A program made the translations under genes and the position numbers. This document shows positions 26,437 to 63,036 of a DNA stretch of 64,000 nt, in pieces (positions within the stretch are counted from its first letter, which is position 1; each line of letters starts with the position of its first letter). Below the pieces are notes generated by a model, which saw only the letters and a program-made list of their open reading frames with translations, was not told the DNA's origin and searched no databases. Source of the DNA: Deltaproteobacteria bacterium. GTDB taxonomy: Bacteria > Desulfobacterota > Desulfobulbia > Desulfobulbales > Desulfurivibrionaceae. The stretch covers positions 1-64,000 of the forward strand of contig JAJZRO010000011.1 in assembly GCA_021802645.1 (NCBI GenBank), read 5' to 3'.

Positions 26437-26534
26437 GGAAGTGGAAAGGGCACTGGTGGCCCTCCCGGACTTCAAATCCGGTGCACCGGGTGAAGAGCCT
26501 GGTGGGTGGGTTCGATTCCCATGCACTTCCGCCA
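26437..26534 (+). tRNA. selC: Selenocysteine tRNA (TCA anticodon)
   Basis: A 98-base tRNA with the features of tRNA-Sec. It has a long eight-base acceptor stem (GGAAGTGG/GCACTTCC region), an anticodon arm GGACTTCAAATCC with anticodon TCA, a large variable arm and a GCCA 3' end. It reads UGA as selenocysteine with SelB and a SECIS hairpin. Its presence means the organism makes selenoproteins. The formate dehydrogenase at the right end is a likely client, but its catalytic residue lies outside the window. Confidence 0.95.
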
Positions 26535-50055: not shown

Positions 50056-51840
<1,785 letters not shown>

Positions 51841-51920
51841 GAAAGGCAAAAGGGAGAAATCAAAAGGCAAAAAGGGCGGACTGTTTTTACTTTTGACTTT
51901 TGCCCCTTGCCTTTTGCCTT
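51841..51920. repeat. AT-rich hairpin repeat, copy A
   Basis: About 80 bases filling the gap between convergent aspS and the HEAT-repeat gene. The left arm is built of GGCAAAAG and ATCAAAAG units and the right arm of their complements (CTTTTGAC, CTTTTGCC). The centre starts AAAAAGGGCGGACTG. It can fold into one long hairpin and may end transcription from both sides. Copies B, C and D are related. Confidence 0.8.
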
Positions 51921-51925
51921 CGCCG

Positions 51926-52318
51926 TCAGGCGCCTAGGTAGTCGCCCACGATCTCCCGGATCTGCGGCTCGGAATCGTTGCGAAGCGTTGCCAGCAGAGC
52001 CAGTGATTCCGGGGTGTTGATGAGGCCGAGGATGTTGGCCGCCTCGCCGCGAATCCAGGGGATGGGCTCGGTGAGGAGCGCCTTAAGGGAGGGAATGGCC
52101 AGGATCACCTCATTGGGCCGTTCTTCCCGCATCGTCTCGAAGAGCACCGCCACCCCCACCCGCACCATGAAACGCTCGTCGCGCAGCAAGCCCCCCGTCA
52201 GGCGGTAGAGACTCGGGTCCTGACGCACCATGGCCATGATGTTTTCCACGTGGCCCATTTCGAGGAAGTCGGCCATCACCTGCCGCAGTTCCTGATCCGC
52301 TGCTGTTTCCTTTTCCAT
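51926..52318 (-). CDS. HEAT-repeat-like small protein
   Basis: A 130-residue all-helical protein. The repeats ALLTEPIPWIRGEAANILGLI and ALLATLRNDSEPQIREIVGDYL (each broken here by a short spacer) match HEAT/PBS-lyase-type repeats. Such small proteins mediate protein-protein contacts. The ATG follows GGAGGGCG. It stands alone, convergent with aspS. The partner is unknown. Confidence 0.82.
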   Translation of the reverse strand: MEKETAADQELRQVMADFLEMGHVENIMAMVRQDPSLYRLTGGLLRDERFMVRVGVAVLFETMREERPNEVILAIPSLKALLTEPIPWIRGEAANILGLINTPESLALLATLRNDSEPQIREIVGDYLGA

Positions 52319-52665
52319 ACGCGCCCTCCACGCTTGGCCCCCTGTCTCATACCGATTTTACGCCGTCGCTGTCAACCCTCTTATGGTCATGCCTTTTCCG
52401 TTGCCGCGACCCCACCGGTTGGGATCATAGCGTCATAGTCATCACACCCCAATCTCGTTTCATGGTCCATGGTGGCTGCACCACAGTGTAGCACCCGCGC
52501 AATGAATGGTTAAGTGCTTCGTTTTATTCTTAACCACTTGTTTTTTTTGTTACTTTATCTTGACATTGGCGTTCCTATATTGCGAGATTGTCACAAGGGG
52601 AGCAGCCGACACGGATCGTGGCGGCGTTTTAGGTGGTTTTCACCAACAGAGAGAGGAGAACACGC
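52319..52665. promoter_or_regulatory. Upstream region of the cytochrome operon
   Basis: 347 bases between the divergent HEAT gene and the decaheme cytochrome. The right half is AT-rich and holds an inverted repeat TGGTTAAG (52507-52514)/CTTAACCA (52529-52536) and a nearby AAGTG/CACTT. A TTGACA (52560) and TATATT (52576) are only ten bases apart, so not a normal promoter pair. No gene is seen. Confidence 0.45.
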
Positions 52666-53577
52666 ATGCAACACACCATCTTGCGACGTCTGCGGACGTA
52701 CGCCCGGAAAACGGCCATGGGATTGGGAGCGGCCGGGGCGATTGCGGTGCTGGCCGGGGCGACACCGGCAACCTCCGCCACTGGGGGGGCGCCCTGCGCC
52801 GACTGCCACGACAAAGCAGTTGCCGCCTTCGAATCCTCCTTCCACGCCAAAATCTGGCAGGGCGCCAACGGCTGCCCATCCTGCCACGGAACAACTGATC
52901 AGCACCTGAACGATCCCTCCAAGAAAACCATCATCTCCTTCAGCAAAGACGGCGGCCGCACTGCCGAGGAACTCTCCAAGCAGTGCCTCGAGTGTCATCA
53001 AAAAACATCCGCTCAGCTGGCCATGTGGGACATGGGCGCGCACAAGAAGAATGATGTCGCCTGCGTTTCCTGCCACAAAATCCATCAACCCCGTCCGGCC
53101 GTCAACCAGCCGACCGTCTGCTTCACCTGCCACCGGGATGTGCGTTCCGATGCCAACAAGATGTCGCACCACCCGATCATCGAGGGCAAGGTCAAGTGTT
53201 CTGACTGCCACAATCCCCACGGCACCCTGTCGAAGCACATGATCAATGCCGAAAGCGTCAACCAGCTCTGCTACAAATGCCATGCCGACAAGCGTGGCCC
53301 CTGGATATGGGAACACCCCCCGGTGGAGGAAAACTGCGCCATCTGCCACACCCCCCATGGCAGTCGGCATGAAACGCTGCTGGTGGATAAGGTGGTTAAC
53401 CTTTGCGAGGATTGTCATGACATTGAAGGCGCTGGAACCCATGAAAGTGCGGTCAACACTGCAGCCAACATGTTCAGTGCCGCAAGCAGTTCAAAGCGCG
53501 TTTCTGCCCGTGGTTGTATCGAGTGCCATCATGCGATCCATGGCTCCTCCAACTTCAAACGATCCTTCACTCGATAA
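52666..53577 (+). CDS. Decaheme c-type cytochrome (MtrA/DmsE-like)
   Basis: A 303-residue exported cytochrome with ten CXXCH heme sites: CADCH, CPSCH, CLECH, CVSCH, CFTCH, CSDCH, CYKCH, CAICH, CEDCH and CIECH. A signal segment (GLGAAGAIAVLAGATPATSA) precedes them. Ten hemes and this length match the MtrA/DmsE family, which threads through an MtrB barrel to carry electrons across the outer membrane. The MtrB-type gene follows 12 bases later. The ATG follows GAGAGGAG. Electron source and final acceptor are not shown by the sequence. Confidence 0.95.
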   Translation: MQHTILRRLRTYARKTAMGLGAAGAIAVLAGATPATSATGGAPCADCHDKAVAAFESSFHAKIWQGANGCPSCHGTTDQHLNDPSKKTIISFSKDGGRTAEELSKQCLECHQKTSAQLAMWDMGAHKKNDVACVSCHKIHQPRPAVNQPTVCFTCHRDVRSDANKMSHHPIIEGKVKCSDCHNPHGTLSKHMINAESVNQLCYKCHADKRGPWIWEHPPVEENCAICHTPHGSRHETLLVDKVVNLCEDCHDIEGAGTHESAVNTAANMFSAASSSKRVSARGCIECHHAIHGSSNFKRSFTR

Positions 53578-53589
53578 AGGAGGCAGGCA

Positions 53590-55647
53590 ATGAAAAAGAA
53601 AGTCTATTCTGCGATGATCTTGCTGTCGCTTGCCTCGCCGGCCCTGGCGGCTGCGACCGAGGACCAGACTGAAGCACATGGCACGATCGAGATCGGCGGA
53701 CAAGCAGTCCACACAAATGGCGACAAGGCCCGTTTTCAGGAATTCCGCGACGTGGATGACAGTATCTTCGGCGCGATGCAGCTCGAGGTCCAGAAAGGGG
53801 CATATCACTTCCAGTTTGATGCGGATAAAGTCGGACAAGATGATCAATCCTATTATCTCCAGGGGGGAGAGTACGGTAATTTCAAGTATAAATTCAACTA
53901 TTCCGACTTCACCCATAATTACGGCTTTGATGCCGTCTCTCCGGCAACAGGGATTGGGACAACCCGCCTCGTTTTCCCGCTTCCTGCCACCGCGGCGGCA
54001 ACGCCGGTGTCGCAATGGAGCCGTTTCGACTATTCGGTGGATCACAAGAGCTATGGCGGCGAGTTCGAACTGTCGCTCCATTCCCCCTTCTATGTCAAGG
54101 CCGGGGTTGAACGACGCGAAGACAGCGGTTCCCGGCCATATAGCGCCTACTTGCGAGATGTTGCGACTGCCAATAGGGGCCCTGCCGAGATACCGGAACC
54201 CATTTCCACCACCACCGACACCCTGAACCTGAAGGCCGGCTATCTGGGAAAAAATATTTCCGCCTCGCTTGCGGGCATGATCAGTTCGTTCAGCAATGAC
54301 AATAAGTTCCTGTATTACGATGACTTGGCTGGCGCGGCGGCCGTAAGCACCACGGTCGATAGGACTGAGGCCTTTGCCCCGGACAACGACTATAAAAAAG
54401 TGGCGGCTGACCTCGCCTGGCGCGATCTTCCGCTGAAATCCGTGTTGGCCATCGACGGGAGCTATGCCCATTTGACCAACAGTTATTCAACGGCCGACCT
54501 CAACCTCAATGGCACCACCTGGGCCGGCGCGTCGGGGTTTACTTCGTTGAACCGGACGACCTTTGATGGCGACATTGATTACACATCTGCCTCTGTCGCC
54601 CTGGCCTCCAACCCCATAGACAAATTGGACACCAAGATCTATTACCGCTACCTCGACCGGGACAACAAATCCAGCATCATCTCCTATGACTCCGGCAATA
54701 CCGACAACACGGATCGCCTCATGAGTTATGAGAAGAACGATACGGGAATCGATGCCGGCTACCGTCTGCCCCAGAAAACGCGGCTGGAGGCAGGGTACGA
54801 ATATCTGAAATTAAACCGTTCGACACCCGAGGGAGACGGAATTCCCGCGAACTCGACCACAGATAATTCTGTGTATGTGGGGGTTAAGAACAGCGCGCTC
54901 GATTGGTTGACGGCCAAAGTGCGCTATAAACACCTGAAGCGCGATTCCGATACCATAAATACCGCTGAAACCCCCTTTTACTACCAGGATCAATCCCGCA
55001 ATGAGTGGATGGTGGGCTTTGATCTCGCTCCGGTGGACACCCTCGATCTCGGTCTGGATTATACCTATAAGCGCATCGATTATGATGCCTCCGTTGACAG
55101 TCGCCAAGACGACAAGCGGCATAGTGTCTATCTCGATGCGACCTGGCGCCCCAGCAAGAGGGCGACCCTATCAGGCTTTGTTGGCTACGAAACCGTCAAG
55201 ACCGATACCAACCGGGTTGCCAACAGTACGACCACGAACAGCGCGACGCTGACAACCTCGCCCTATTCCCAACAGAATGACGATGACTTTTGGAGTTACG
55301 GTCTTGCCGCCAGGGTTGCGGCCACGGAAAAATTAACCCTTGATTTCTCGTGGCAGCATCAAAGATCTGACGGACAGGTTGATTTCAGTAACCCCAATTT
55401 CCTGGCCAATACCGCGTCGGACGACTACACCAAAAAGACCTTGGAGGCCAAGGCCACCTATGCCTTTGATCCCAAGTTTAAAATGACTCTGGGATACCTG
55501 TACGAGAGGTTTACCTACGAAGACGTCAATTACACCGGTTTTCAATACCAGCCGGTTGCCGCAAACCAGACATTCTACAGCGGGCTGTATGCAGCCCAGA
55601 ACTACGATGCCAATGTCGTTTACGTGATGGCGGCCTACGGATTCTAA
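53590..55647 (+). CDS. MtrB/PioB-type outer-membrane beta-barrel protein
   Basis: A 685-residue predicted barrel. A signal peptide (MKKKVYSAMILLSLASPALA) is followed by a region with repeating amphipathic strands such as YLQGGEYGNFKYKFNYSDF and DTLNLKAGYLGKN. It ends in the outer-membrane signature AAYGF. Size, strand pattern and the adjacent decaheme gene identify it as the sheath protein of a porin-cytochrome conduit. It lacks the CXXC found at the start of some MtrB proteins. No extracellular cytochrome gene follows. Confidence 0.9.
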   Translation: MKKKVYSAMILLSLASPALAAATEDQTEAHGTIEIGGQAVHTNGDKARFQEFRDVDDSIFGAMQLEVQKGAYHFQFDADKVGQDDQSYYLQGGEYGNFKYKFNYSDFTHNYGFDAVSPATGIGTTRLVFPLPATAAATPVSQWSRFDYSVDHKSYGGEFELSLHSPFYVKAGVERREDSGSRPYSAYLRDVATANRGPAEIPEPISTTTDTLNLKAGYLGKNISASLAGMISSFSNDNKFLYYDDLAGAAAVSTTVDRTEAFAPDNDYKKVAADLAWRDLPLKSVLAIDGSYAHLTNSYSTADLNLNGTTWAGASGFTSLNRTTFDGDIDYTSASVALASNPIDKLDTKIYYRYLDRDNKSSIISYDSGNTDNTDRLMSYEKNDTGIDAGYRLPQKTRLEAGYEYLKLNRSTPEGDGIPANSTTDNSVYVGVKNSALDWLTAKVRYKHLKRDSDTINTAETPFYYQDQSRNEWMVGFDLAPVDTLDLGLDYTYKRIDYDASVDSRQDDKRHSVYLDATWRPSKRATLSGFVGYETVKTDTNRVANSTTTNSATLTTSPYSQQNDDDFWSYGLAARVAATEKLTLDFSWQHQRSDGQVDFSNPNFLANTASDDYTKKTLEAKATYAFDPKFKMTLGYLYERFTYEDVNYTGFQYQPVAANQTFYSGLYAAQNYDANVVYVMAAYGF

Positions 55648-55680
55648 CGGAACCCAACCGGGAAATTTGAATGCAAGGAA

Positions 55681-55715
55681 GGGGGTGCCCGCTCGGGCAT
55701 CCCCTTTCATTTTCT
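55681..55715 (+). terminator. Rho-independent terminator of the cytochrome-porin operon
   Basis: GGGGGTGCCCG (55681-55691) pairs with CGGGCATCCCC (55694-55704) with one G-U pair, followed by TTTCATTTT. Confidence 0.8.
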
Positions 55716-55749
55716 TGCTATTTTTTCCCATCCTGCTACGTTATGCCCC

Positions 55750-56301
55750 ATGACTGCCCGGCACTTTGACCCGCTCAACGACCGGCTGAGCCGCGATATA
55801 CGCAACGAACTCTCCAGGGCCTTTGCCGTGGCAGCGGCGGAAAAAACCCTGGCCCCGGCGGCACTGGCGGCAGAACGGTTTCGGACCATGGATCTTGCGC
55901 CGGTGTACGAGGCGTACATTGCCGACCGACTGACCCGCTACCAGCAGGCACTTCAGGCCTTTGCCGCCGACCGCGTGCAAGATGCCTTCTCGCGCGCCTT
56001 GGTGCTCTGGGACCTCGGCCTCTTTTTCGAGGTGCATGAAATCATCGAGCATGCCTGGCACCATGCCCGGGGGGCGGAAAGAGAGATTCTCCAGGCGATG
56101 ATCCGGGCGGCCGGCATGTACATCAAGCTCGCCATGGGCCAGCCGGAGGCGGCAAGAAAAATGGCGGCCAAGGCGGTGACGGCCCTGGAACACCATCGCT
56201 CGCGGGTGCCCACCAACCTGCCGCTCGACCGCCTGCTCGCCGCCCTCAAAACCTTTGATGCGCAGCCACCCAAACTGTATCAACCCCAAGGGAGCCTCTG
56301 A
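55750..56301 (+). CDS. DUF309-family protein
   Basis: A 183-residue all-helical protein. The segment LWDLGLFFEVHEIIEHAW with the following LQAMIRAAGMYIKLAMGQ matches the DUF309 signature (FFEAHE...W...). The conserved Glu and His may form a metal site. It is the first of several closely spaced plus-strand genes. Function unknown. Confidence 0.85.
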   Translation: MTARHFDPLNDRLSRDIRNELSRAFAVAAAEKTLAPAALAAERFRTMDLAPVYEAYIADRLTRYQQALQAFAADRVQDAFSRALVLWDLGLFFEVHEIIEHAWHHARGAEREILQAMIRAAGMYIKLAMGQPEAARKMAAKAVTALEHHRSRVPTNLPLDRLLAALKTFDAQPPKLYQPQGSL

Positions 56302-56303
56302 CC

Positions 56304-56807
56304 ATGCCGCCGCCGTTACTTGACCCCTTCACCCCGCTCTTTTGGCTGCGTGTCGGCGTCGCCTTTCTCTGCGGCGGCATCATCGGCCTCGACCGCCAGT
56401 TGCGCGGCAAACCCGCCGGCATCCGCACCAGTATCCTCATTTGCCTCGGCACCGAGGTCTTTGTCAGCCTGGGCCATCTGCTCTCCTTCGACCACGGCAC
56501 CGACCCCAGCCGGGTGATAGGCCAGGTGGTCACCGGTATCGGCTTCCTCGGCGCCGGCGTCATTATGGCCCGGGAGGGGCTGGTGCACGGCGTCACCTCG
56601 GCCGCGGTGATCTGGGTGCTGGCCGCCATCGGTTCGGCCATCGGCCTCGGCTATGAACGAGGCGCCATCGCCCTCTCCATCATGGCCGTTGTCGTACTGA
56701 CCGGCATGGAGCTGCTCGAAAGCCGGGTTCTGCACCTGCGCGAAGAGACGCACATAGAGCTGCCGTTTCGACGGCGCCACGACGATCATCCTCTCGACCA
56801 CCCCTAA
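56304..56807 (+). CDS. MgtC/SapB-family membrane protein
   Basis: A 167-residue protein with four or five membrane helices. GIIGLDRQLRGKPAGIRTSIL and GIGFLGAGVIM are the MgtC family landmarks. Family members affect magnesium homeostasis or F1F0-ATPase activity. The short length and missing carboxy-terminal ACT domain mark it as the SapB-like subgroup. It follows the DUF309 gene by two bases, so the two are co-translated. Confidence 0.9.
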   Translation: MPPPLLDPFTPLFWLRVGVAFLCGGIIGLDRQLRGKPAGIRTSILICLGTEVFVSLGHLLSFDHGTDPSRVIGQVVTGIGFLGAGVIMAREGLVHGVTSAAVIWVLAAIGSAIGLGYERGAIALSIMAVVVLTGMELLESRVLHLREETHIELPFRRRHDDHPLDHP

Positions 56808-56829
56808 TCCCAACCCGAACCAGGAAGCC

Positions 56830-57849
56830 ATGTCCGACGCCAATCTGCCGCCCTTTGTCCGCCTGCTGCTCGACCCTCAAAGCTATCCCCACCCGGCCGC
56901 CGAGGTGAAGCTGGTCCAGACCCATATCTCCTACGTCTTCCTGGCCGGCGACTTTGTCTACAAGTTCAAGAAGCCGGTGAATTTCGGCTTTCTCGACTTC
57001 ACCACCCTGGAAAAACGCAAGCACTTCTGCGAACAGGAGCTGCTGCTCAACCGCCGCCTCTGCCCGGACCTCTATCTCGGCACCGTGGCGGTGAACGAAC
57101 AGCACGGCACCCTGGCCTTAAACGGCACCGGGGAGCCGGTGGAATACGGCGTCAAGATGGCGCGGATGCCGGAAGAGGGGATGATGGCCAACTTCATCGC
57201 CAGCGGCAGGCTCGATCGGGCGATGATCGACCGCATCGTCGCCATTCTGGTGCCGTTTTACCAGCAGGCGGACGGCGGGGAGGATATCCGCCAGTTCGGC
57301 ACTGCCCAGGCGGTGAGTGTCAACGTGCTGGAGAACTTCGAGCAGACCCAAGGGTTCATCGGCTGCCCGTCGCTGAACCAGCAGCAGTTCGACACCATCA
57401 GCACCTATGCCAAGGGGGTGCTCGCCCAGGAGGCGCGTTTTGATGCGCGCATCGCCGCCGGCCGCATCCGCGACTGCCACGGCGACCTCTACTCCGCCAA
57501 CATCTGTTTCGATGGCGACAAGGTCCACATCTTCGACTGCATCGAATTCAACCAGCGCTTCCGCTACTGCGATGTGGCGAGCGACGTGGCCTTCCTGGCC
57601 ATGGACCTCGATTACCACGGTCTCGCCGACCTCTCCCGCTTCTTCATCGACTCCTTTGTGACCAAGTCGGGCGATACCGGACTTGCCGGCATGCTCAACT
57701 TCTACAAGTGCTATCGGGCCTATGTGCGGGGCAAGATCAACCTCTTCACCGCCCATGCGCCGGAGGTGGACAGCGCCACCAAGGCGAAGTGCTTCGAGAT
57801 GGCGGGGAAATACTTTACCCTGGCGGAGCGTTATGCCACGGCCGGCTGA
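56830..57849 (+). CDS. Aminoglycoside phosphotransferase-fold kinase
   Basis: A 339-residue APH-fold protein. The catalytic loop is CHGDLYSANIC with H217 to L220, and the metal-binding motif FDCIEF follows. The amino-terminal lobe contains KFKKPVNFGFLDF. In many bacteria this domain is the first half of a single protein whose second half is a P-loop kinase. Here the P-loop gene starts 17 bases before the end of this one, in another frame. The substrate is unknown; antibiotic resistance should not be assumed. Confidence 0.85.
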   Translation: MSDANLPPFVRLLLDPQSYPHPAAEVKLVQTHISYVFLAGDFVYKFKKPVNFGFLDFTTLEKRKHFCEQELLLNRRLCPDLYLGTVAVNEQHGTLALNGTGEPVEYGVKMARMPEEGMMANFIASGRLDRAMIDRIVAILVPFYQQADGGEDIRQFGTAQAVSVNVLENFEQTQGFIGCPSLNQQQFDTISTYAKGVLAQEARFDARIAAGRIRDCHGDLYSANICFDGDKVHIFDCIEFNQRFRYCDVASDVAFLAMDLDYHGLADLSRFFIDSFVTKSGDTGLAGMLNFYKCYRAYVRGKINLFTAHAPEVDSATKAKCFEMAGKYFTLAERYATAG

Positions 57850-58420
57850 GATCTATGTCTTCTTCGGCCTGATCGCCACCGGCAAATCGACCCTCGCCCA
57901 GGCGTGGGCCGAACGCCACGGACTCACCTACGCCAACTCCGATGTGGTGCGCAAGGAACTGGCCGGCCTTGCAACCACAACGAGCCAGAAAGAGGGGGTG
58001 GACCAGGGCATCTACACCAAGGAATTCAGCCGCCGCACCTACGACGCCCTGCTCAGTCGCGCCGAGGCGGCAATCGGGCAGGGGAGGGGGGTGATCCTCG
58101 ACGCCTCCTACCAGAGCCGGGAAGAGCGCGGCAAGGTGGTGGCTCTGGCAAACCGCCTCAAGACCCCGGTCCGTTTCGTGCTCTGCGACTGCGATGACGA
58201 GGTAAAAAAGGCCCGACTCGCCCTCCGCGCCCAGGACCCCAACGCCGTCTCCGACGGTCGCTGGGAGATCTATCTCCAGCAGAAAGCGCGCTTCGAACCA
58301 CCGACGGAACTGGGGTCGGGCCAACTGGTGACCCTCGACACCGACCTGTCGATCACGGCAGCCCTTGACAAACTCGACGCCCTGCTGCAAAGAGAAGAGA
58401 AGAAAGAAGACAAAAGGTAA
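57833..58420 (+). CDS. P-loop kinase (AAA/zeta-toxin-like), partner of the APH-fold gene
   Basis: A 195-residue P-loop protein with Walker A GLIATGKST at 12-20 and a later GVILDASYQ segment carrying a Walker-B-like acid. It matches the carboxy-terminal half of bifunctional APH/ATP-binding proteins. ATG 57833 lies inside the end of the APH gene. The last residues (EEKKEDKR) and the stop codon come from the start of hairpin repeat copy B, so the original end may have been replaced. Confidence 0.85.
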   Translation: MPRPAEIYVFFGLIATGKSTLAQAWAERHGLTYANSDVVRKELAGLATTTSQKEGVDQGIYTKEFSRRTYDALLSRAEAAIGQGRGVILDASYQSREERGKVVALANRLKTPVRFVLCDCDDEVKKARLALRAQDPNAVSDGRWEIYLQQKARFEPPTELGSGQLVTLDTDLSITAALDKLDALLQREEKKEDKR

Positions 58421-58481
58421 AAGTCAAAAAGAACGGTATGTTCCCTTCCTCTTTGCCTTTTGACTTGTAACTTTTGCCTTT
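58408..58481. repeat. AT-rich hairpin repeat, copy B
   Basis: About 75 bases. The left arm contains GACAAAAGG and AAAAGTCAAAAAG, the centre AAAAAGAACGGTATG then TTCCCTTCCTCTTTG, and the right arm CTTTTGACTTG and CTTTTGCC. Its first part overlaps the end of the P-loop kinase gene and supplies the TAA stop (58418-58420). The core is nearly identical to the reverse complement of copy C. Confidence 0.82.
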
Positions 58482-58496
58482 CCAAAGGACACGCCC

Positions 58497-58928
58497 ATGA
58501 ACACCCGCATCTATGTGCTGCGCTTCCCCAAAGAGGTCATTGACCAGCCGATCATCTGCAACCTGGTCAAGAAGTTCGACATCGAGTTCAACATCCTCAA
58601 GGCCACCATCCTCATGCAGCAGGAGGGGGTGATGGTCCTGGAATTCAGCGGCCACAAGGCCAACGTCAAGAAGGGGATCAAATACCTGGAGGAGATGGGG
58701 GTCAAGGTGCGGAGTCTGGCGGGCAACATCCGCCGCGACGACGAGAAGTGCTACCAGTGCGGCGCCTGCACCGGCATCTGCCCTACCGGCGCCCTGCACA
58801 TCGTGCGGCCGGAGATGGCGGTGGCCTTCGATCCCGACAAATGCACGGCCTGCGGCCTCTGCGTGGCGGTCTGTCCGGCCCGGGCCATGGAAGTCTCGCT
58901 CAACGGCGATATCGATCTCGCCGCGTAG
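58497..58928 (+). CDS. NIL-domain 2x[4Fe-4S] ferredoxin
   Basis: A 143-residue cytoplasmic electron carrier. Residues 1-75 form a NIL domain, a small ligand-binding fold also found in methionine transporters. Two [4Fe-4S] motifs follow: C85, C88, C91, C95 and C116, C119, C122, C126. Such proteins occur near methionine or sulfur metabolism genes in anaerobes. Hairpin repeats B and C flank the gene in opposite orientation. It is convergent with the RACo-like gene. Confidence 0.93.
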   Translation: MNTRIYVLRFPKEVIDQPIICNLVKKFDIEFNILKATILMQQEGVMVLEFSGHKANVKKGIKYLEEMGVKVRSLAGNIRRDDEKCYQCGACTGICPTGALHIVRPEMAVAFDPDKCTACGLCVAVCPARAMEVSLNGDIDLAA

Positions 58929-58937
58929 GCCGGCGAG

Positions 58938-59027
58938 AAGGCAAAAGTAAGCAAGGCAAAGGGCAAAGAGGAAGGAAAAATACCGTTCTTTTTGCCTTTT
59001 GACTTTTACCCTTTGCCTTTTGCCTTC
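58938..59027. repeat. AT-rich hairpin repeat, copy C
   Basis: About 90 bases between convergent genes. The left arm has GGCAAAAGTAAGCAAGGC and the right arm CTTTTGACTTTTACCC and CTTTTGCC. Read on the minus strand, the core AAAAAGAACGGTAT then CCTTCCTCTTTGCC matches copy B. The right arm provides the last codons (KAKGKG) and TAA stop (59008-59006) of the RACo-like gene. Confidence 0.82.
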
Positions 59028-60997
59028 TCTCCCCTCTCCAACCGCGCCTTCACCTTGGGGAAGAGCTCCAGTTCCGTATGGGGCAAAAAGTGCGAGGCGA
59101 CGAACTGATCCTGAAAATGGGTCACCTCGGAGAGCTCGAAGCTCGTCATCCGGCGCACCACCTCCACCACGTCCTGGCGGATGTGGTTGCTCATCTCGCT
59201 CATCCAGGCCCCCAGCAAGGAGCCATTGCCCACGTAAAGCACGCGGTCGGTATCGACCTCCGGCAGCAACCCCACCGTCATAGCAGCATCGAGGTCGATG
59301 TAGCTGCCAAAGGCACCGGCGAGGATGATCTGCTCCAGGTCGTCCATGGCCAGCCCCACCTCCTCCACCAGGGTCTTGACCCCCGCATAGATCGCGGCCT
59401 TGGCCCGGATGAAGTTCTCGATATCCACCTCGTTGAGCACCACGTCGTGGCCGCTGCCTGACTCTGGCGCCCAGACCAGCACGAACTCATAACCGCTGCG
59501 GCCCTGGCGGAGGCGCGGGGTAGCGAGCCCGCGGTTGAACTTGCCGCTCTGGTCGATCACCCCCTGTTCCAGGAAGGTGGCCACCATCACCAGGAGGCCG
59601 GAGCCGCAGATGCCCACCGGCGGCTTGTTGCCCACGGTAAGGTTCATCGGCTCCAAGGTTGCCGGATCGAGGCTGAAATCCTCGATGGCGCCCTCGGCCG
59701 CCCGCATGCCGTGGGTGATGCCACCGCCCTCGAAGGCTGGGCCGGCCGAGCAGGCGGCGCAGACCAGCCACTCCTTGTTGCCGATGACGATCTCGGCATT
59801 GGTGCCGATATCGATGTAGAGGGTGACAAGGTCGGTGCGATACATGCCGGAGCCCATCACCCCGGCCACGATGTCGCCACCCACGTAGCTGGAGATGGAA
59901 GGGTAGACCAAAGCCACGGCGTGGCGGGGCAGATCGAGGCGCAGGTCCATGGCGCGGATGGGCGGCAAAAAGGTGGTGACCGGCACATAGGGTGCGCGCC
60001 GGATGTGGCGCGGGTCGAGGTGCAGCAAGAGATGGGTCATGGTGGTGTTGCCGGCCAGGGTGATGGAACCGATCTCCTCGCGCCGGATCTGCCCCCGCTC
60101 CGGCTCCTCCGGCACCTTGGCCTTGGCGAGCAGGGTGTCGATGAGGCCGTTGATGGTGCCGGTCACCAGCTCCTGCATGAGGTCGAGCCCCTTGGGCTTT
60201 TCCGCCTGAATGATGCGGGAGATGACATCCTCGCCGTAGCTGATCTGGCCGTTGTACTCGCCGGCCCGGGCCAGGACCTTGCCGGTGTGGAGATCGATGA
60301 GAATCCCGTAAACCGTGGTGGTGCCGATGTCGAAGGCGAGGCCGAAGTTGCGCTGCGTCCAGTTGCCGGGCTGGACATCCATCAGGTATTTCTTGCCACT
60401 GCGCACCGGGTTGGCGATGGTGACCGTGACCCGGAAGTCGTCCACCCGCAGGACCTCCGGCACCTTGCGCAGCACCGGCAGCGAAATGACCACTCCGCGC
60501 TCGTCGTACTGATTGCTCAACCCCTGGAGGATACGGCCGGCATCGGCCATGTTGTCGTGCGCTGCGGGCCGGGGCAGCTCCAGGAAGTATTTCTCCACCG
60601 GCGGCTGAAAGATCCCCTCCTCGCGCAACTCCTCGATGTTGTAGACGTGCATCCGCGCCCGGTGGCGCTGCGGCACCTCGGTGGAGAGACCGCCCTTGCC
60701 CATGCTGGAGGTGGCTGGAATCCGCACGGTGACCACGCCCTCCACCTGGGCGGTGCAGGCCTGGCGCCAGCCGGCGCGGAAATCCGCCTCGCTCAATTTT
60801 TCGCTCTTGCCGCCCGTCACCGCGCCCTGCTCGATGAGCACCCGGCACTTGCCGCATACCCCGCTGCCGCCGCAGGAGGCGTTGATGTGGACTCCGGCCT
60901 GGCGCGCCGCCTTGATGATGGTTTCGCCAGCCTTCACCTCCACGGTGCGGCCGCTGGGCAGAAAGGTCACGCGGGCAGTTATCGTTTCGTCTGCCAT
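59006..60997 (-). CDS. RACo-like corrinoid protein reductive activator (2Fe-2S + ASKHA, DUF4445)
   Basis: A 663-residue protein with an amino-terminal [2Fe-2S] domain (C42, C48, C51 and C81, in CGGSGVCGKC and RQAC). A linker and an actin-like ATPase domain follow (FGLAFDIGTTTVYG near 215-230, LAGNTTMTHLLL, YIDIGTNAEIV). This matches RACo, which uses ATP to reduce cob(II)alamin in corrinoid proteins of the Wood-Ljungdahl or methyltransferase systems. It is coupled by TGATG to the flavoprotein gene. The last residues come from hairpin repeat copy C. The corrinoid target is not in the window. Confidence 0.9.
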   Translation of the reverse strand: MADETITARVTFLPSGRTVEVKAGETIIKAARQAGVHINASCGGSGVCGKCRVLIEQGAVTGGKSEKLSEADFRAGWRQACTAQVEGVVTVRIPATSSMGKGGLSTEVPQRHRARMHVYNIEELREEGIFQPPVEKYFLELPRPAAHDNMADAGRILQGLSNQYDERGVVISLPVLRKVPEVLRVDDFRVTVTIANPVRSGKKYLMDVQPGNWTQRNFGLAFDIGTTTVYGILIDLHTGKVLARAGEYNGQISYGEDVISRIIQAEKPKGLDLMQELVTGTINGLIDTLLAKAKVPEEPERGQIRREEIGSITLAGNTTMTHLLLHLDPRHIRRAPYVPVTTFLPPIRAMDLRLDLPRHAVALVYPSISSYVGGDIVAGVMGSGMYRTDLVTLYIDIGTNAEIVIGNKEWLVCAACSAGPAFEGGGITHGMRAAEGAIEDFSLDPATLEPMNLTVGNKPPVGICGSGLLVMVATFLEQGVIDQSGKFNRGLATPRLRQGRSGYEFVLVWAPESGSGHDVVLNEVDIENFIRAKAAIYAGVKTLVEEVGLAMDDLEQIILAGAFGSYIDLDAAMTVGLLPEVDTDRVLYVGNGSLLGAWMSEMSNHIRQDVVEVVRRMTSFELSEVTHFQDQFVASHFLPHTELELFPKVKARLERGEKAKGKG

Positions 60998-61845
60998 CAG
61001 GCCAACTCCATCACGTGCAGGGTATTGAGTTCCGCCTTGGTAAAGACCGGGCCGTCCACGCAGACCAGCTTGTTGTCCAGGTGGCAGTGGCGGCAGAGGC
61101 CCACCCCGCACTTCATGTGACGCTCCAGGGTGGTGATGATGTCCTGGTCGGCAAAACCCTTGGCGCTCAGGGCGGCCAGGGTGAACTTGATCATGAGCGG
61201 CGGCCCACAGACCAAGGCCTTGCTGGCGGCGGGGTCGAGCGCCACTTGGTCGAGCAGCTTGGGCACCACCCCGACCGCGCCGCTCCAGCCGGGCTCCGGG
61301 GTGTCCACCGTGAGCAGGCATTGGACCCCGGCCTCCTGTTCCCAGCACGCCAGATCGGCCCGGAAGGCGATGTCGGAAGGGGTGCGGCTGCCGTAGAGGA
61401 TGGTGATGGCGCCGAAGCGACCCCGGTCCGCAAGACAGGATTGGATCACCGCCCGCAGGGGGGCGAGGCCGATGCCGCCACCCACAAAGAGCAGATTTTT
61501 GCCGCAAAGATCGGACATGGGGAAAAAACGGCCATAAGGGCCCCGTAGGGCGATGATCGCCCCTTCGGCAAGCAAGTGCATTGCCGAGGTCAATTTTCCC
61601 GCCCTACGCACGCTTAAATGAATTTCCCCCGGGGTCGCCTGCTGGGCCGAGGAAATCGAGATGGGGGCCTCGCCGCAGTGGGGCACCGAGACCATGAGGA
61701 ACTGGCCGGGCTGGTAGCGGAAGGAGGCATTGACCGCCGGATCGGTGAAGGCGAGGACAAAGGTCTTGATCTGGGAGTTCTCCCCGATGACCCGAAGAAT
61801 CCGCGCCGGTTGCGGCAGGTAGGGGTCGGACTGGGTGTGGGGCAT
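60997..61845 (-). CDS. FAD/NAD-binding, 2Fe-2S diaphorase subunit (HydG/AsrB-like)
   Basis: A 282-residue ferredoxin-reductase-type flavoprotein. An FAD-binding barrel (YQPGQFLMVSVPHCGEAPIS) is followed by a nucleotide-binding domain with VGGGIGLAPLR and CGPPLM. A carboxy-terminal [2Fe-2S] site is formed by CGVGLCRHCHLDNKLVC. It resembles sulfhydrogenase gamma and sulfite reductase subunit B. It should pass electrons between NAD(P)H and the neighbouring iron-sulfur subunit, and so to the formate dehydrogenase. ATG 61845 is preferred to a longer start with no family match. Confidence 0.9.
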   Translation of the reverse strand: MPHTQSDPYLPQPARILRVIGENSQIKTFVLAFTDPAVNASFRYQPGQFLMVSVPHCGEAPISISSAQQATPGEIHLSVRRAGKLTSAMHLLAEGAIIALRGPYGRFFPMSDLCGKNLLFVGGGIGLAPLRAVIQSCLADRGRFGAITILYGSRTPSDIAFRADLACWEQEAGVQCLLTVDTPEPGWSGAVGVVPKLLDQVALDPAASKALVCGPPLMIKFTLAALSAKGFADQDIITTLERHMKCGVGLCRHCHLDNKLVCVDGPVFTKAELNTLHVMELA

Positions 61846-61915
61846 GGTATCGTTATATCCTCCGCCGGTTACGGTTCTTCGCCTCTCATGTGGGCCATTT
61901 CGCGCCACACGAAGT

Positions 61916-61994
61916 CAAATGGCAAGGGGCAAAAGTCAAAAAGAAAGGAGTGTTCCTTCCGCACTCTTTGCCTTTTCCCTTTTGCCCTTTGACC
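61916..61994. repeat. AT-rich hairpin repeat, copy D
   Basis: About 78 bases between the iron-sulfur and flavoprotein genes of the operon. The left arm is GGCAAGGGGCAAAAGTC, the core AAAAAGAAAGGAGTG then TTCCTTCCGCACTCTTTG, and the right arm CCTTTTCCCTTTTGCCC. It is in the same orientation as copy B. It could weaken read-through inside the operon. Confidence 0.78.
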
Positions 61995-61998
61995 TTCT

Positions 61999-63036
61999 TC
62001 ACTCTTCACTTGCCAGTTCGACGAAGCGGGCAATGTCGGTGCCGCCGAAGCAGATGTCGAGGCAGCGGCCGCAGCCTACGCAGCTCGGCCGGCCGTGTTT
62101 TTCCACGTCGTACTTGAGCTTGTGCAGGAAGCGGTGCTTGATCGCCGCCTTCTTCGGCTCCACCGGGTTGTGGCCGCCGGCCATGCGGGTAAAGCCGGCA
62201 AAGGTGCAGGCATCCCAGCAGCGCAGGCGTTCGCCGGAGGTGGCGGAACGCGGCTGGTCCACGATGGTGAAACAGGTGCAGGTGGGGCAGACGTAGGCGC
62301 AGCCGGCGCAATCCTGGCAGCGCAACGAGAGCTGCTGCCAGACTGCCTCGTCCACCATCCCTTCGGCCAGCCGCCGGATGGCGAGGTCCACATGGACCTG
62401 GCGCTGGAATCCGCCCCGTGCCTCAAGATAGAGCTGATACTGTTTCTTGATCTCCGCCTCCTCGGCCGCGCTGAAGAACTGCGGCCAGCGGCTGACGATC
62501 GTCTCGCCCTGCGCCCGGCCGGCCGTCACCAGGAAGCGGTCGCCGAGGTCGGTCAGTTGCAGGTCGGCGCCGAGCTCGCTGAAGGGGCCGTTCTTGGTAG
62601 CATCGCAGAAGCAATTGGGGAAGGGCGCGTTGCAGTTGAGCCCCACCAGCACCGTATTGTGGCGCCGGCCCAGGTAATGCGGCTCCCTGGTTCGCTGGCT
62701 GAAGATGACATCCATATAGAGGATGGCGGCCAGATCGCAGGAGCGCACCCCAAAGTAGAGGGTTGGCGGGGGCGCCGCATACCTCGGGTGCAGGGCGTAG
62801 CCGGCCTGGTCCGCCTCGTAGGCGGCGATGACCTCCTGCTGCGGAAAGAGGAAGGGCTTGAGCGATTCCTGCGGCTGGTGGTCGAGGTCCAGGGCCATGG
62901 TCTCCACGCTCGCCACCTCGGCAAAGAGGGTGTCACCATGGCGGTTTTGCATCGGCGCCACCAGGCGGTATGCCTTGCCGAGCTTGCGGAGCAGCGGGAT
63001 CAGGTGGTCTTTTTTGAGGATATGGCTGCTGCTCAT
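61999..63036 (-). CDS. 4Fe-4S dicluster electron-transfer subunit (HydB/AsrA-like)
   Basis: A 345-residue iron-sulfur protein. Near the end lie two cluster motifs, CQDCAGCAYVCP and CVGCGRCLDICF. The amino-terminal part has the LYFGVRSCDLAAI segment seen in sulfhydrogenase beta and anaerobic sulfite reductase A subunits. It would link the formate dehydrogenase to the flavin subunit. ATG 63036 overlaps the formate dehydrogenase stop as ATGA. The longer frame into that gene is rejected. Confidence 0.9.
   Translation of the reverse strand: MSSSHILKKDHLIPLLRKLGKAYRLVAPMQNRHGDTLFAEVASVETMALDLDHQPQESLKPFLFPQQEVIAAYEADQAGYALHPRYAAPPPTLYFGVRSCDLAAILYMDVIFSQRTREPHYLGRRHNTVLVGLNCNAPFPNCFCDATKNGPFSELGADLQLTDLGDRFLVTAGRAQGETIVSRWPQFFSAAEEAEIKKQYQLYLEARGGFQRQVHVDLAIRRLAEGMVDEAVWQQLSLRCQDCAGCAYVCPTCTCFTIVDQPRSATSGERLRCWDACTFAGFTRMAGGHNPVEPKKAAIKHRFLHKLKYDVEKHGRPSCVGCGRCLDICFGGTDIARFVELASEE

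Follow-up and report, generated by a model that had tools for sequence, protein, structure and literature searches.

Heptad-repeat hairpins behind stop codons in a Desulfurivibrionaceae genome: candidate two-way RNA 3' ends

What are the four AT-rich hairpins that stand within 10 kb of one another in this contig, and what keeps them at the ends of genes? They were reported in an initial annotation of a 64,000-nt stretch of DNA (the window), where they were designated A–D and read as bidirectional terminators, as RNA-stabilising ends or as a mobile element of the MITE or REP type. The explanation preferred here, to which about an even chance is given, is that A–D would be arrays of a 7-nt unit (heptad) grown by slippage, homogenised within each genome and retained at gene ends as RNA 3' hairpins working in both directions. 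Inspection of the sequence confirmed the four repeats and their positions; the elements and the neighbouring genes (gene calls throughout are those of a home-made ORF scorer) are the following:

Element A: 51842..51920, no strand assigned; between the convergent aspS (+) and HEAT-repeat (-) genes.
Element B: about 58407..58481, + strand; between tandem genes, AAA_33 ATPase and then NIL/ferredoxin gene.
Element C: 58938..59026, - strand; between the convergent NIL/ferredoxin (+) and RACo-like (-) genes.
Element D: about 61914..61996, + strand; between two tandem minus-strand genes.
aspS, aspartyl-tRNA synthetase: 50056..51840, + strand; PF00152, 6.5e-127; upstream of A, anchor for the comparison across species.
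HEAT-repeat gene converging on A: 51926..52318, - strand; PF13646.
NIL/4Fe-4S gene between B and C: 58497..58928, + strand; PF09383.
RACo-like gene (ASKHA, corrinoid-activating): 59006..60997, - strand; PF14574, 1.1e-101; 3' end inside C.

Each element consists of two inverted arrays of a 7-nt unit flanking a short core. The arm units are mainly GGCAAAA and GTCAAAA (variants GGTAAAA, GTTACAA and GGGCAAA), and the arms are imperfect tandem arrays of period 7 (TRF rows 51842-51872, 51890-51920, 58452-58481, 58990-59026 and 61966-61996). Element A begins about 2 nt past the aspS stop and is composed of the purine arm AAAGGCAAAAGGGAGAAATCAAAAGGCAAAAAG, the core GGGCGGACTG and the pyrimidine arm TTTTTACTTTTGACTTTTGCCCCTTGCCTTTTGCCTT. 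The common core noted earlier was recovered as AAAAAG-nny-GG..TTCC after oriented alignment (A+, B+, C as reverse complement, D+); the cores of B and C, 0.5 kb apart, are near-identical and of opposite orientation. D, A and B are the three longest inverted repeats in the whole window (inverted-repeat search), and GNCAAAAG was counted 19 times in the window, 12 of them within A–D, vs 9.3 ± 3.1 expected (19 reached in 0 of 100 shuffles). Positions 1-51.8 kb are free of such a hairpin, as had been stated; isolated single units were the only traces there (inverted-repeat search, TRF, unit count). Folding into a long imperfect hairpin, claimed at first for all four, is clear for C and D (z vs shuffles on the + strand: C -6.6; D -5.4) and weak for A and B as RNA (two strands: A -1.7/-2.3; B -1.0/-2.5). 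No Rfam family matched A–D; tRNA and tRNA-Sec were the only hits in the window at gathering score, the selenocysteine tRNA being at 26437-26530 (RF01852, 72.7 bits).

All four elements are located at stop codons, in agreement with the placement at gene ends given by the initial annotation, and in two of them, B and C, the TAA and the last residues of the flanking gene are part of the repeat. A GGTAAAA unit of B provides the stop codon of the upstream AAA_33 gene (C-terminal tail ...EDKR*, absent from the AAA_33 homologues in relatives); in C the GGGTAAAA unit does so for the RACo gene (tail ...EKAKGKG*); in D the outermost (AGTGAAG)2, read on the minus strand (61996-62010), codes for the terminal part of the upstream gene, its stop codon included. 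The interval between A and B also contains a multihaem cytochrome c gene followed by a gene for an MtrB/PioB outer-membrane barrel (52633-55647), a pair that looks like an extracellular electron transfer conduit.

A lack of further copies in the genome had been named beforehand as part of what would count against the initial reading. Six more were found in the window genome (38 contigs, 2.55 Mb), on contigs C11, C13, C14, C34, C36 and C37, by a pattern search allowing one mismatch, which may miss more degenerate copies. The total is 10 elements: 8 two-armed and 2 one-armed, those of contigs C11 and C34 having the purine arm only. Four of the 10 fall within 10.2 kb (P = 5.5e-5, simulation with uniform placement), so the clustering of A–D is non-random. 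All 10 adjoin a stop codon; A, C, C14 and C37 are between convergent genes, B, D, C13, C34 and C11 between tandem genes, and no clear divergent case was observed among the 10 (C36 is uncertain, since its downstream gene was not resolved; the arrangement at C11 was taken from the sequence, because the gene caller chose an antisense ORF).

The six extra copies, the cluster of four in 10 kb with a common core in B and C, a patchy distribution, and a sister genome that has no GGCAAAA element at sites B and C (coding sequence about 79-93% identical) are all in keeping with a REP- or MITE-like mobile element copied in trans by a transposase (RAYT or other). The copies themselves speak against it, and such an origin is considered improbable: neither defined ends nor constant length nor target duplication was seen in them; no duplicated flanks of the kind expected of a MITE are apparent, and the copies agree in only part of their core (about 15-25 nt); the unit order differs in every copy and the length varies, unlike the constant palindrome of REP/BIME; the units of one site change between species; and 0 mobility genes were found among the ten flanking genes tested. 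The MITE/REP-like reading of the initial annotation thus found no support in its usual sense. One genome-wide mobile family with fixed ends was ruled out by comparing copies.

The change of units is best followed at site A, the interval that separates the aspS stop from the converging HEAT gene, for which the genomes (drafts) of 20 species were compared. Species of the family were found to have hairpins of one design and of different heptad units at this site:

GGCAAAA: window genome; degenerate in the sister genome G001.
AAAGGNN: G020, G022, G025, G004 and G015.
AGTGAAA/AATGAAG: G013.
AGCTNNN: G007, G009 and G017.
CAAGGCG: G016.

In most of the heptad-bearing species the self-match at lag 7 tops lags 4-10 (first 100 nt past the aspS stop), and the site A hairpin has z ≤ -2.5 in 15 of the 20. 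No clear heptad hairpin was detected at site A in two of the 20 species compared, G003 and G012. Three others, G005, G008 and G014 (L118, L105 and L104), have non-heptad palindromes at the site, long and directly after the aspS stop (z -12 in G008), perhaps REP/MITE-like elements of another genus. Counted genome-wide, AAAGGNN arrays gave 29-65 matches in G004/G022/G015/G020/G025 and 0 in the window genome, and AGCTNNN arrays gave 28 matches in G011 and 0 in the window genome; reversed-pattern controls for both were about 0. By these counts several of the units are genome-wide, genome-specific "dialects"; the AGTGAAA unit is thinly scattered across the genus and is not restricted to one genome. 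The units given are a sample of the spectrum, obtained with a small number of patterns. That different units occupy the same orthologous site suggests that shape and orientation matter more than sequence.

Sites B and C of the sister G001 carry quite different heptads (CTTTGCGTCTTTGCG; GAGGCGTCAGGCGTGAGG), the NIL gene flanking these sites being 93% identical between the window genome and G001. Contig C64 of G001 and contig C134 of G026 are 99.3% identical over 3.3 kb (5 mismatches), and their site C arrays differ by exactly 14 nt, that is, by two heptads; in this one case, between near-identical strains, the array has grown in 7-nt steps. The two contigs (L112 and L093, respectively) are near-identical in spite of the assignment of their genomes to different genera; some contigs of G026 (7% contamination) probably derive from the window genome's genus.

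A change by whole units at site C is also what would be left by neutral heptad slippage (polymerase slippage, template switching), with arrays surviving only where they disturb nothing, just behind stop codons, and the hairpin as a by-product; in most bacterial genomes seven is the commonest unit length of long SSRs, heptamers being the class found most often (Mrazek 2007, cited after PMC4679880). This alternative is held to be possible but less probable than retention of the hairpin. It leaves unaccounted for the like hairpin architecture at one site among species of unrelated units, and the compound arms of three loci from the same order as the window genome (L055, L056 and L062): in these the inner unit is GGCAAAA and the outer unit AGGAGTC, AGGCATA or AGGAGTG, and the switch from one unit to the other occurs in mirror order on both sides.

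The order of the arms also bears on this alternative, since neutral slippage should yield both orders. Of the pairs of period-7 tracts within 90 nt, 25 were purine-first and none pyrimidine-first, and one had both tracts on the same strand; these loci had been retrieved through a single arm or through synteny and thus were unselected for order (binomial p 6e-8 for 25:0, an approximate value, since some sets overlap by orthology and contribute a few of the 25). The opposite order gave one match (46:1) in 46 cross-phylum genomes, each with at least one purine-first copy, a contrast inflated by that selection, of which the 25:0 count is independent; in 395 genomes of the phylum the pattern search returned 0 matches to the opposite order. 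Since the reverse complement of a purine-first element is again purine-first, transcripts of either strand run through stop codon, A/G-rich arm, loop and U-rich arm in this order, and the element can act both ways. The AGCTNNN dialect has neither a purine/pyrimidine order nor a U-rich arm; a U-tract terminator therefore cannot be what all dialects have in common.

Distribution across phyla was scanned with the two-arm pattern, one genome per species, and at least 117 stretches were obtained. Two-arm matches listed came from Bacteroidota, Cyanobacteria, Acidobacteria, Clostridia, Planctomycetes, Omnitrophota, Deinococcales and others; loci of Nostoc and Oscillatoria also have a hairpin of the GTCAAAA/GGCAAAA unit. 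The strict pattern was found in 2 of 395 genomes of the phylum and is too narrow for mapping the class there. In eight loci (L183, L127, L143, L174, L201, L205, L219 and L220) the match lies inside a much longer, near-identical repeat (accaaaaggtcgcactacttggtCAAAAGGCAAAAAGC...), which is a true dispersed repeat family of several Bacteroidota MAGs, distinct from the heptad arrays.

Position relative to genes was determined for the matches listed, leaving aside 9 of 122 elements called inside a gene and 25 of 122 at a locus edge. Placeable copies among the matches listed: 26/88 convergent, 59/88 tandem, 3/88 divergent; control gaps of the same loci: 32/202 convergent, 117/202 tandem, 53/202 divergent. 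Among these matches divergent gaps are thus depleted (Fisher 1.3e-6) and convergent gaps enriched (p 0.01). From stop codon to element edge the median distance is 8 nt (113 gene ends; matches listed), and in short convergent gaps the element occupies a median of 87% of the gap (n = 18; matches listed); the length of convergent gaps differs little with the presence of an element (105 nt with, 80 nt without). Depletion from divergent gaps is predicted by tolerance alone and in this respect agrees with neutral slippage as well; position and arm order taken together probably point to the RNA 3' end.

The purine-first order could also reflect purine-loading of transcripts (Szybalski's rule) or a protein site at the DNA level, that is, a composition pressure or the binding of a nucleoid protein. 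The order does match the sense strand of both genes in convergent pairs, and A-tracts recur every 7 nt. Between tandem genes, however, the rule would call for purines on either side, and the majority of the placeable copies listed are found there; the AGCTNNN dialect is composition-neutral; and a period of 7 is not the helical period. Either variant is regarded as unlikely.

The reading as terminators or RNA-stabilising ends, offered in the initial annotation, stood in part: position and purine-first order fit it, whereas classical terminator scores are not above those of convergent gaps. The best terminator score d of A–D ranged from -8 to -41 where a candidate hairpin was returned at all; a classical Rho-independent terminator (GC-rich stem and U-tract, d>0) was rejected, all four being below 0. 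A simple terminator scan of 50-64 kb matched only D among A–D, and total sites were no more than in shuffles. Across phyla, among the matches listed, d>0 was obtained for 16 of 109 elements vs 3 of 109 shuffles, a rate not raised above that of ordinary convergent gaps (5 of 36). The real order scored better than the mirrored one (d>0 in 16 vs 4 of 109; median -23 vs -55; matches listed), as would result from the purine-first order. The score not exceeding convergent controls is in line with neutral slippage, and so are arms free of co-variation within an element: pair-by-pair co-variation was looked for and rejected, the complementarity of arms within one element not exceeding that between elements (p 0.68). 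Hence no base-by-base selection of the helix is visible, and pairing follows from the shared unit. Textbook bidirectional terminators occur within the AAAGG heptad arms of L258 and as the core of L207. A textbook intrinsic terminator lies behind the MtrB gene of the window (55677-55708; 14-bp stem, T-rich tail); the window genome thus also uses classical terminators.

Retention of a two-way RNA hairpin would combine these observations as follows. Heptad units would grow and be replaced by slippage and by copying between the sites of one genome, and in this way each genome would arrive at its own dialect; the feature retained would be the RNA hairpin at the 3' end of the transcript. There it could serve as a weak, distributed terminator, its 3' arm presenting a U4-U5 tract at 7-nt intervals, and, alternatively or in addition, as a 3' block to exonucleases. 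The function proposed from the sequence data is therefore that of a putative weak bidirectional terminator and/or exonuclease block or stabiliser. A wider proposal, put forward tentatively and with less confidence, is that of a widespread bacterial class of 3'-end elements in which selection keeps position, purine-first order and hairpin and lets the sequence go, the unit being homogenised per genome and swapped between species; if it is true, heptads would have to be copied in trans from one site to another, whether by gene conversion, by template switching or by an enzyme.

Since heptad repeats were described in cyanobacteria around 1990, what they do has been an open question. Arm order, stop abutment and unit replacement turn a "junk repeat" into a testable claim of RNA 3'-end function and concerted unit evolution; if it is right, the orthologous sites are natural experiments in which a 3'-end hairpin has been rebuilt repeatedly from different units, and the arrays are fast-evolving markers with 7-nt steps for strain typing.

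REP/BIME of enterobacteria are extragenic palindromes near gene 3' ends for which protection of mRNA 3' ends has been proposed; REPs have a fixed sequence and fixed ends and an associated RAYT enzyme. The A–D class resembles them as palindromes near gene 3' ends and differs in its variable heptad array and genome-specific units. Bidirectional intrinsic terminators have an A-rich 5' side, a hairpin and a U-rich 3' side on both strands, an arrangement that the A–D class shares; most of its stems, in contrast, are long, AT-rich and below the classical threshold.

By published description A–D belong to the STRR (short tandemly repeated repetitive) class known in cyanobacteria: 7-bp tandem units, intergenic, at many sites per genome and hairpin-forming. 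The account given in PMC2670836 has STRR of 7-bp units in intergenic regions of filamentous cyanobacteria; among the sites with a hairpin are those near hupS-hupL and hoxW, and the roles suggested there, with function unproven, are in transcript stability, in translational coupling or in termination. The A–D class is like STRR in its heptanucleotide tandem units, intergenic position and hairpin capability, and unlike STRR in its occurrence outside cyanobacteria, purine-first order, position flush with stops and unit replacement at orthologous sites. No description of the purine-first rule, stop-codon abutment or unit swapping at orthologous sites was found in the open-access papers that were searched; new here are the purine-first order, the stop abutment with divergent depletion, the site A dialects and the two-unit difference between strains. 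TAACTGA heptamers are distributed patchily in Beggiatoaceae, cyanobacteria and Bacteroidetes (MacGregor 2015, PMC4679880); they are similar to the A–D class as patchy, cross-phylum intergenic heptamers changing length in 7-nt steps, but they are repeated in direct orientation and, in the main genome, mostly precede start codons immediately, whereas the A–D class consists of inverted pairs behind stops.
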